This document shows positions 13,432 through 31,636 of a stretch of 64,000 nucleotides of DNA, one piece after another. The DNA lies in the NCBI RefSeq assembly GCF_000021725.1, contig NC_012115.1:514501-578500 (forward strand). The letters run 5' to 3'. Position 1 is the first letter of the stretch. Every line of letters begins with the position of its first letter. The notes under the pieces are model-generated. The model was given only the letters and a program-made list of their open reading frames with translations. It did not search any database and was not told the origin of the DNA. A program made the translations under genes and the position numbers. The stretch is from Nautilia profundicola AmH. GTDB taxonomy: Bacteria; Campylobacterota; Campylobacteria; Campylobacterales; Nautiliaceae.

Positions 13432-13501
13432 ATCAAACCTTTATTTGGTTTTTTTAATTATAACACTTAAAAATTTAAGTTTTCTTAAAAATAACATTTT
13501 G

Positions 13502-28355: not shown

Positions 28356-29573
28356 ATGCTTAAATTTAATACGTATTATGATTATGAAAACAAAAATTTA
28401 GAAACATTTGCATATGAGAGTCTTGTAAAAGAAAAAGAAAGCGGTGAAATAGGGTATTATCATCTTCCTAAAAATTCTATGGACTTATTAAATGAACTTG
28501 ACAATATAAATTACAACTTTGAAAAAATAGCGGTTATCGGTATAGGCGGATCTTCTCTCGGGACAAAAGCCATATACAGGCTATTAAAATCAAACTATAA
28601 AAACGTAAAAGAGATAGTTTTTCTTGAAAATACAGACCCGATCGAGCTTAAAAACCATTTTTCTAAAATAGATAAAAACAATACGCTTTTTTTAGTAATA
28701 TCTAAATCAGGGACCACAATTGAGACTATTTCAATTTTCAAAGCGGCGATCGATTACTTTAAACTTGATTTAAGTAATGATAAAATTATTGTAATTACGG
28801 ATCCCGCCTCAAACCTCGAAAAGTTTGCGGATAAATATTCTATAAAAGTTTTTAATATTCCAAAAAACGTGGGAGGTAGGTTTTCCGTATTCAGTGCTGT
28901 GGGTGTTGTGCCTTTGTATCTTGCGGGGTTTGACGTTAAAAAGGTTTTAAAAGGTGCGGATGAGTTTTTTGAGTCGTTTTTTAATAAAAGCGAATGGCAT
29001 CTTATAAGAAAAGCCGCCTTTTTATACGAAAGAAGCAGATGTTATAAGATGAATGTTGTGTTTTCATACTCTTCACTTTTGGATGAATTTAATAAATGGT
29101 ATGTACAGCTGTGGGGTGAGAGTCTTGGAAAAATCAATAAAAAAGGCGGAAGGGTAGGTCTTACTCCTATTGGATTGTTAGGTTCTATTGATCAGCATTC
29201 ATTTTTGCAGCTTTTGATAGAAGGTCCGAGAGATAAAACGGTTACTTTTATAAAGGTTAAAAATTTCGAAAATTCTTTAAAAATCCCGAATATTTCGCTG
29301 CCTTTTTTAGAAACGACAGATTTTGTAAACGGATATACGTTTAACGAACTTATAAACGCACAGTGTGACGCTACAAGAGAAAGTGTTGTTAGAAGCGGTA
29401 TTGACGTGGATGAAATCGTACTTGAAAAATTGAATGAAGAAAACGTGGGAATGCTGCTTGTATATTATGAACTGTTAACTTCCGCTGTAGGTGCGCTTTT
29501 TGAAATAAATACATACAATCAACCGGGCGTGGAGTTTGGTAAAAAGATCTTAAAAACCAAATTTAATTCATAA
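28356..29573 (+). CDS. pgi: Glucose-6-phosphate isomerase
   Basis: Interconverts glucose 6-phosphate and fructose 6-phosphate. The 405-residue protein is the short form seen in several Campylobacterota. Motifs: GIGGSSLGTKA, the phosphate-binding SKSGTTIET, the catalytic EFNKWYVQLWGESLGK region, and IDQHSFLQL with the catalytic histidine. It follows aat by 23 bases on the same strand and overlaps the convergent repressor gene by 11 bases. Confidence 0.96.
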   Translation: MLKFNTYYDYENKNLETFAYESLVKEKESGEIGYYHLPKNSMDLLNELDNINYNFEKIAVIGIGGSSLGTKAIYRLLKSNYKNVKEIVFLENTDPIELKNHFSKIDKNNTLFLVISKSGTTIETISIFKAAIDYFKLDLSNDKIIVITDPASNLEKFADKYSIKVFNIPKNVGGRFSVFSAVGVVPLYLAGFDVKKVLKGADEFFESFFNKSEWHLIRKAAFLYERSRCYKMNVVFSYSSLLDEFNKWYVQLWGESLGKINKKGGRVGLTPIGLLGSIDQHSFLQLLIEGPRDKTVTFIKVKNFENSLKIPNISLPFLETTDFVNGYTFNELINAQCDATRESVVRSGIDVDEIVLEKLNEENVGMLLVYYELLTSAVGALFEINTYNQPGVEFGKKILKTKFNS

Positions 29574-30180
29574 TCCTTACCACTTTTCCTATAATTTCGG
29601 CATCTTCCACCGTTTCGCCGGGATAGAGTTTATTGTCTGAAATAAGCTCTATTTTACCGTCGCTTCTTAGGTTTATTCTTTTTACAAATACTCCAGCGGG
29701 AGTGGATACTACGAATATTCCGCCGTTTTGTACGCTTTTATCGTTTCTGTCTATAAATATGATGCTGCCGTCTTTTATGGTAGGCTCCATCGAATCGCCT
29801 ATTACGTTTATGGCGTCTAAATCTTTATCTATAATTTTTTTGTCTATGTAAAGAGTTTCATAATTTTCATCAAAGTTGAGTGCTCCGCCTCCTGCACTTG
29901 CGTTTATGTCTTTAAAATATCTGATTTTAGAAAATTTTTCGGTTTCCGTTGCTATGTTTTCTATCTGCTGGTCAAACAGAAGCCAGTTAAGGGATATTTT
30001 TCTTTTTGCGCAAAAATATGCCAGCTCTTCAAAAGGGATTTTATTTCTTTTTTTAAGCATTGAGAGATGTTCCGGAGTAATCCCTAATGCTTTTGCCACG
30101 TCTTTGTTTAAAACTTTTCTCTCACCAATCTCCAAAGATAATATATCTTTAATTTTTTCTATTATTTTTTCAAAATTCAT
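29563..30180 (-). CDS. S24-family (LexA/CI-type) self-cleaving repressor
   Basis: A 205-residue protein with an N-terminal DNA-binding domain (about 20-70; NKDVAKALGITPEHLSMLKK) and a C-terminal S24 peptidase domain. Catalytic Ser130 (GDSMEPT) and Lys167 (VFVKRI) are present, and an Ala-Gly bond at 96/97 in NASAGGG is a likely self-cleavage site. ATG 30180 is preferred over the upstream TTG at 30195 because AAGGA is correctly spaced. It is divergent from a Y-family polymerase. LexA is missing from many Campylobacterota, so this may replace it in the damage response; that role is inferred. Confidence 0.9.
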   Translation of the reverse strand: MNFEKIIEKIKDILSLEIGERKVLNKDVAKALGITPEHLSMLKKRNKIPFEELAYFCAKRKISLNWLLFDQQIENIATETEKFSKIRYFKDINASAGGGALNFDENYETLYIDKKIIDKDLDAINVIGDSMEPTIKDGSIIFIDRNDKSVQNGGIFVVSTPAGVFVKRINLRSDGKIELISDNKLYPGETVEDAEIIGKVVRIMN

Positions 30181-30188
30181 ATTATTCC

Positions 30189-30234
30189 TTAACAAACTGT
30201 TAATTTAAGTTTCAATATTATATCAGTTTGTTAA
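30189..30234 (-). promoter_or_regulatory. Operator-like inverted repeats of the S24 repressor
   Basis: The palindrome TTAACA-AAC-TGTTAA lies at 30189-30203, in the leader just before the repressor's ribosome-binding site. An 11-base inverted copy of its left part (CAGTTTGTTAA on the plus strand) lies at 30224-30234, inside the promoter spacer. Centres are 35 bases apart. Two related sites that overlap the promoter suggest autorepression. Confidence 0.7.
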
Positions 30235-30246
30235 TATTTGTGTCAA
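30217..30246 (-). promoter_or_regulatory. Sigma-70 promoter of the S24 repressor
   Basis: On the minus strand a perfect TTGACA (30241-30246) and a perfect TATAAT (30217-30222) are separated by 18 bases, 37 bases before the ATG. The spacer contains an operator-like half of the TTAACAAACTG element. Confidence 0.8.
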
Positions 30247-30260
30247 GAAAAAAGTTGTTT

Positions 30261-30321
30261 AAGTTAGTTAGGGTAGTTAAGGTTAGTTAAAGTTAGTTGA
30301 GGTTAGTTGAAGTTGGTTAGG
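30261..30321 (+). repeat. Decamer repeat array between repressor and polymerase genes
   Basis: Six degenerate units of about 10 bases (AAGTTAGTTA, GGGTAGTTA, AGGTTAGTTA, AAGTTAGTTG, AGGTTAGTTG, AAGTTGGTTA). The segment TTAGTTGAAG at 30303-30312 is matched by its inverse CTTCAACTAA at 30340-30349, which could form a hairpin in the polymerase leader. Confidence 0.8.
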
Positions 30322-30397
30322 TTTTTAGAGTGTAAATAACTTCAACTAATCATAAAAAACTAAATTAACTTAAAGAGTATACCTTTAAAGGAAGGAT

Positions 30398-31636
30398 ATG
30401 AAGATACATTTGGATTTGGACTCGTTTTTCGTATCCGCACACAGAATAGAAGATAAAACCCTTTTGAATAAACCGGTAGTTGTTGTTAAAAGAAATGATA
30501 AAGAAATATTTAAAAATGAAAAAACAAAACTTTTGAATTTAAATGAGGGAGCTTTTACAGGGGATCTGATAGTGGGGGATGAAAAGTACGACAAAAGCTA
30601 TTTTCTTGAAAACGGCAAAGTAAGAGGCATAGTAGTAACGGCCAGTTATGAAGCGAGGGAACTTGGAATAAAAACAGGTACAACCCTTGCCGAGGCTCTT
30701 AGAATCTATCCGAAACTGACGGTTCTTACCCCTAATTATAAACTTTATCATATACTTTCTTACAAACTGAAGCTTTTTTTAGAAAAGAAAATACCTCTTG
30801 TTGAACAGTACAGCATCGACGAGTTTTTCGGTGATTTGGAAGGGTGGGTGAATGATGGTGAAATTTACGGGTTTATCAAAACATTAAAGGATGAAATTTG
30901 GAAAAGGTTTAATCTCCCGGTATCCATAGGCGCTGCAAAAAGCAAATGGACAGCCAAGCTTGCAACGTCATTTGCAAAACCCGACGGAATAAAAGTGGTA
31001 AAAAATATAGATGAATTTATTGAAAATATACCTGTAGAAAAATTTCCAGGTATCGGGAAAAGAATAGAAAAAAGGATTAAAGAAAAAGGAATATTGACTT
31101 TAGGGGATGTAAAGAGAGAAAAAGAGTATTTCTATTCTTGGGGAAAGGCGGGAGTGCAGCTTTATAACAGGGTTTGCGGAACTGATAATGAAAAAGTTAT
31201 TCAAAAAAGTGAAAGAAAAAGCATAGGTATTTCCAGAAGGTTTGATCCCGTTTACGACAGAAAAGAAATAATCAGAAGAATCGGAATACTATGCAGGTAT
31301 CTTTCTTTTTTGGTTAAAAAGAAAAAAGTAAATCCTACTTTTTATTATCTGAGTATCAAATACAAACACTCCAAAAAATCAAAAGCGCATATAACACTTG
31401 ATAGAATATTTAACGAAATGTTGTTAAAAGAAGTAATGGTAACGCTTTTTTACAGGGCTGATATAGAGGATGATTATATTATTTCTTTAGGTATAAGCGT
31501 TTCTAAGTTTAAAAAAGTTTCAAATCTTTTTGATCTGGAAGAAGATAGAAAAATGGAAAAATTAAATGATGCGATTTATAAATTAAGAAGCAGATACGGG
31601 CTTTCAGCCCTGATTAGCGCTTCGGAGATTATTTAA
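30398..31636 (+). CDS. Y-family translesion DNA polymerase (DinB/UmuC type)
   Basis: A 412-residue polymerase with HLDLDSFF at 4-11 and the catalytic YSIDEFFGD at 138-146. The palm/finger element TASYEARELGI, a helix-hairpin-helix (FPGIGKRI) and a little-finger domain (about 235-350) follow. An extra segment of about 44 residues (31-74) sits between the first strand and the fingers, compared with canonical DinB. AAAGGAAGG precedes the ATG. It is divergent from an S24 repressor, so it is probably damage-inducible. Confidence 0.93.
   Translation: MKIHLDLDSFFVSAHRIEDKTLLNKPVVVVKRNDKEIFKNEKTKLLNLNEGAFTGDLIVGDEKYDKSYFLENGKVRGIVVTASYEARELGIKTGTTLAEALRIYPKLTVLTPNYKLYHILSYKLKLFLEKKIPLVEQYSIDEFFGDLEGWVNDGEIYGFIKTLKDEIWKRFNLPVSIGAAKSKWTAKLATSFAKPDGIKVVKNIDEFIENIPVEKFPGIGKRIEKRIKEKGILTLGDVKREKEYFYSWGKAGVQLYNRVCGTDNEKVIQKSERKSIGISRRFDPVYDRKEIIRRIGILCRYLSFLVKKKKVNPTFYYLSIKYKHSKKSKAHITLDRIFNEMLLKEVMVTLFYRADIEDDYIISLGISVSKFKKVSNLFDLEEDRKMEKLNDAIYKLRSRYGLSALISASEII

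Follow-up and report, generated by a model that had tools for sequence, protein, structure and literature searches.

A LexA-like repressor as the apparent DNA-damage switch of the Campylobacterota

We propose that a small S24 repressor of the self-cleaving type, encoded beside a Y-family translesion polymerase in Nautilia profundicola AmH, is the LexA-analogous SOS repressor of the Campylobacterota, a phylum thought to lack one. In relatives, the predicted binding sites of the repressor lie upstream of recA, recQ, and other repair genes, although in N. profundicola itself the repressor seems to control little more than itself and the polymerase. DNA binding, RecA-stimulated cleavage, and induction by damage are inferred from sequence, and we put the probability of this explanation at about 0.82. 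We started from a sequence-only reading of the locus, which noted perfect promoter boxes, a palindrome with an inverted half-copy in the promoter spacer, and the residues of a self-cleaving repressor, and which suggested a possible SOS replacement in the form of a local damage switch. The observation is confirmed and the interpretation is supported, but a local switch, while it fits this species, understates the whole: across the phylum, the regulator appears to run an SOS-type regulon.

The locus lies within a window of 64,000 nucleotides (contig NC_012115.1, positions 514,501 to 578,500), and all coordinates below are those of the window unless a locus is named. The intergenic stretch 30181-30397 separates the two genes, and the features are as follows. 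(Numbers beginning with f denote families of genomes and numbers beginning with L denote individual loci.)

29563-30180, minus strand: S24 repressor gene (205 aa; CI-type HTH plus S24 peptidase domain)
29890-29895, minus strand: codons of Ala96-Gly97, the predicted cleavage site (ASAGGG)
29791-29793, minus strand: codon of catalytic Ser130
29680-29682, minus strand: codon of catalytic Lys167
30189-30203, no strand assigned: operator O1, TTAACAAACTGTTAA, just downstream of the −10 box of the repressor promoter
30217-30222, minus strand: −10 box TATAAT of the repressor promoter
30220-30234, no strand assigned: operator O2, ATATCAGTTTGTTAA, inside the repressor promoter spacer, 31 bp from O1
30229-30237, plus strand: putative extended −10 (TGT-TAATAT) of the polymerase promoter, overlapping O2
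30241-30246, minus strand: −35 box TTGACA of the repressor promoter
30257-30323, plus strand: degenerate GTTAGTTAAG-type repeats in the presumed 5' leader of the polymerase gene, not conserved
30398-31636, plus strand: Y-family (DinB/UmuC-type) translesion polymerase (412 aa), the only one in the genome

The repressor promoter is a 12/12 match to the consensus, with an 18-bp spacer and an extended −10. O1 (TTAACA-AAC-TGTTAA) is the only exact match to TTAACANNNTGTTAA in the 1,676,444-bp genome, while O2 has two mismatches. A chance origin of O1 is excluded by its conservation at the same place in relatives, not by the count in the window (within two mismatches, there are 21 sites where 13 are expected). 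With the start codon at the ATG at 30180, the cleavage site and the catalytic residues are numbered as in the sequence-only reading. Pfam models identify a Peptidase_S24 domain (75.6 bits against a cut-off of 23.3) and a phage-CI-type HTH just under its cut-off (20.9 bits against 22), and the divergent gene matches the IMS family (118.9 bits).

The protein is not LexA. It scores 33.9 bits against the curated cut-off of 110.95 for the LexA model (TIGR00498), and the LexA winged-HTH domain (PF01726) was not reported at E values up to 0.001. None of 150 genomes of the order has a protein that passes the LexA cut-off, whereas several of the well-known control genomes do. The repressor is also the only S24 protein of its genome, and RecA is present in all 25 genomes tested, including this one. 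A profile search against the PDB finds the catalytic domains of LexA and UmuD. The AlphaFold model (mean pLDDT of 75, weak around the cleavage loop) matches 186 CI, LexA, and lambda CI, including LexA and lambda repressor bound to the RecA filament (8gms, 8gmu). Ala-Gly is found in 106 of 109 distinct orthologs (and is invariant in alignment A1), and the Ser-Lys spacing is 37 in 103 of 104 orthologs measured. This appears to be the spacing in LexA (119/156) and in UmuD (60/97) as well.

Orthologs of the repressor occur in 108 of the 150 genomes, at 74-89% identity within the family (Nautiliaceae, to judge from matching named contigs) and mostly 40-60% beyond it. The Y-polymerase is divergent from the repressor in families f1, f18, f10, and others, including all nine Nautiliaceae loci. 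In loci with the TTAACA class of operator, O1 recurs mostly 7-14 bp before the start codon and O2 follows at 31 bp in most distinct loci (a spacing of 31-32 bp recurs in most distinct loci with the same helix class), although the 16 bp between them vary. This looks like two dimers on one face of the DNA. TTGTTAATATT is conserved at O2 but not at O1 in families f1 and f18, which suggests that O2 overlaps the −10 of the polymerase promoter, but this promoter is inferred from conservation only. In contrast, the repeats in the presumed polymerase leader are absent from most relatives. In the window, they can pair with 30334-30374, and separate Nautiliaceae and f18 genomes have different low-complexity or minisatellite-like insertions there.

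In other families, the palindrome beside the repressor changes its half-site but keeps the form nnnnCA-N3-TGnnnn. In 106 distinct loci, the class of operator follows the recognition helix of the repressor without crossing: PEHxS occurs with TTAACA (21 of 24), NQLTxATMK with ATTTCA (31, plus 3 ties, of 34), and PQATFATMK with ATGWCA (23 of 31). A fourth pairing, of NFATMK with ATTGCA, is seen in two loci (L150 and L370). The classes coincide with clades, so part of the covariation is shared ancestry and the loci are not independent, but it is what direct binding predicts. We did not identify an operator for the polymerase-linked paralog in Arcobacter or for several repressors in families f4 and f16.

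In two of these lineages, the cognate operator is strongly enriched. First, ATTTCAWWWTGAAAT occurs 105 times in 21 genomes, as compared to 2 times for the same pattern read backwards. Of 88 of these sites that we read, 75 have a gene start from −30 to 150 bp downstream (some sites are represented by two overlapping loci, so these numbers are not all independent). Scans with hidden Markov models identified RecA, RecQ, RmuC, the UDG-linked radical SAM protein (TIGR03916), RadC, and integron integrase among the targets, with RecA at 59-68 bp from the site in several genomes. A Y-polymerase that is away from the repressor has its own site at two loci (L226 and L172). Second, ATGWCAWNWTGACAT, in the ATGWCA family, occurs 23 times in 6 genomes, as compared to 0 times for the control, and these sites precede genes that we recognized by reading as recA, recQ, ruvA, radA, a comM-like gene, and an integron-type integrase. 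In Sulfurospirillum, recA has an operator with one mismatch and the radical SAM gene has an exact one. (Sulfurospirillum sites about 3.3 kb into the chromosome lie inside a coding gene and were discounted.) In an Arcobacter-family genome, the promoter of the second paralog carries ATTGCAAAATGCAAT and recA carries ATTGCAATTTGCAAT; the two share ATTGCA-N3-TGCAAT. This is an SOS gene set.

Other genes also lie under these operators. A conserved protein of 112-113 aa (MYGKKKERLYVYDL...; L207:927-1262, L220:1586-1921, L263:1623-1958, L343:1122-1460), with no Pfam or NCBIfam match for the copy in L207, is found in two lineages that use different operators and is likely a new SOS gene. Small membrane-like proteins (60-88 aa, with no Pfam or NCBIfam match for the one in L205) recur 24-63 bp downstream of the operator in family f7. 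A BrnT toxin, DNA methyltransferases, and RhuM-family genes lie downstream of exact operators and are mobile or defense genes that have joined the regulon. Finally, integron-type integrases in vent Campylobacterota have the operator upstream, as LexA controls intI elsewhere.

In contrast, in nine Nautiliaceae genomes (N. profundicola and eight others), TTAACA-N3-TGTTAA is not enriched (60 sites against 101 for the control). The recA promoter of N. profundicola has no site, and neither do those recA promoters of families f1 and f18 that could be read. The supported targets are the repressor itself and the polymerase, and control beyond the polymerase is unproven in this family. A site with one mismatch lies 24-26 bp before polA in three Nautiliaceae, but it overlaps a conserved promoter-like stretch and was not found at polA in the other genomes that we read, so it remains tentative. 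Another shared site, between dapE and a small gene (window position 13491), includes the stop codon of dapE.

To explain these observations, we propose that the repressor binds O1 and O2, 31 bp or about three helical turns apart, as a dimer, probably cooperatively, and so represses both its own promoter and the overlapping divergent promoter of the polymerase. DNA damage would lead to RecA-ssDNA filaments, which would trigger self-cleavage at Ala96-Gly97 by the Ser130-Lys167 dyad, and the polymerase would be made until intact repressor re-accumulates. In relatives, the same repressor, with a lineage-specific operator, would control recA and other repair genes.

A second possibility, which is unlikely but is the main rival, is that the repressor controls SOS genes but does not cleave itself and is released by another signal, such as an anti-repressor or a small partner. 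The closest fold match by E value is a lambda-186 hybrid/phage 186 CI, and 186 CI is probably not cleaved but inactivated by an anti-repressor. Also, conserved micro-ORFs face the repressor in 71 loci (see below), and in Acinetobacter the small protein DdrR is a co-repressor made from a gene divergent from umuDAb (PMC7273328). However, the Ala-Gly, Ser, and Lys residues with the spacing of LexA and UmuD are almost invariant, and the micro-ORF is absent from Nautiliaceae, including the window.

Third, this could be a domesticated or resident phage repressor that controls only itself and whose proximity to the polymerase is incidental, as the HTH is of phage CI type and the best fold matches include the 186 and lambda repressors. 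This seems more unlikely still because the neighbors are housekeeping genes, with no phage genes seen by eye in 24-37 kb, because orthologs with a conserved divergent polymerase are phylum-wide, and because operators lie before repair genes in relatives. Finally, it is very unlikely that the palindromes are promoter or terminator features bound by another factor, with the repressor regulating only itself: although O1 and O2 overlap promoter elements in AT-rich DNA where many near-matches occur by chance, the half-site follows the recognition helix without crossing, and the same site recurs before unrelated repair genes with control counts near zero.

S24 repressors that stand in for LexA are already known. 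The closest precedent is the non-canonical SOS regulators of Bacteroidetes (PMC8565304), which also combine an S24 peptidase (with Ala-Gly and Ser-Lys) with a CI-type HTH instead of the LexA winged helix, and which control an SOS regulon with divergent operator motifs in a phylum thought to lack LexA. That family was found only in Bacteroidetes, one group there uses CTAA-N5-TTAG, and the facing micro-ORFs are found here. The small regulon in N. profundicola resembles the minimal regulons, built around error-prone polymerases, of UmuDAb/DdrR in Acinetobacter and HdiR in Streptococcaceae (PMC7273328, PMC8565304), but those are different lineages, orthologs in other families of Campylobacterota have sites at recA and many repair genes, and the window lacks the small partner. 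FddR of Francisella (PMC13148647) is an S24 phage-type repressor that took over part of the damage response in a lineage without LexA, but it is confined to one genus, while the present family is phylum-wide. With LexA itself, the repressor shares the self-cleavage residues and their spacing, the predicted fold of the C-terminal domain, autoregulation (inferred here), and the content of the regulon in relatives, but its operator seems to be unlike LexA boxes.

Epsilonproteobacteria are described as lacking LexA, and Campylobacter jejuni as having no typical SOS response (PMC2390758, citing Erill 2007). The N. profundicola genome paper does not mention LexA or SOS, and among open-licence papers we found no description of an SOS regulator in Arcobacter, Sulfurimonas, Sulfurospirillum, or Campylobacterota. 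If our proposal is right, then much of the phylum outside of the well-studied host-associated genera does have an SOS response, including inducible mutagenesis and, in vent lineages, SOS-type control of integron integrases. It would be a further independent replacement of LexA, and the natural series of operator and helix changes makes the evolution of DNA specificity directly testable.

It is also interesting that in 71 loci that we read, a conserved small ORF with a ribosome-binding site faces the repressor (some of these loci come from the same genome through two searches). The micro-ORFs fall into two classes: class 1 is 23-34 aa and ends in SNxxF, LNEKVL, or the like, and class 2 is 36-44 aa, with GCKTAAEFALFLK. 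Counts of changes indicate purifying selection (pN/pS of 0.36 and 0.19), and Pfam gave no family (one match, at E = 0.18, is below the cut-off). Some micro-ORFs precede the polymerase in an apparent operon. The nearest parallel that we know of is DdrR. It is possible, although tentative, that the Campylobacterota have an ancient, phylum-wide SOS system, with an operator code that drifts together with the recognition helix, that includes a damage-induced micro-peptide (23-44 aa) acting as a co-repressor, an anti-repressor, or a division checkpoint, and that Helicobacter- and Campylobacter-like lineages lost this system while Nautiliaceae reduced it to one polymerase. At L337:1200-1445, an 82-aa paralog of the repressor with the HTH but no S24 domain is itself under the operator and is possibly a non-cleavable competitor, and short HTH-only matches were also found in three genomes.
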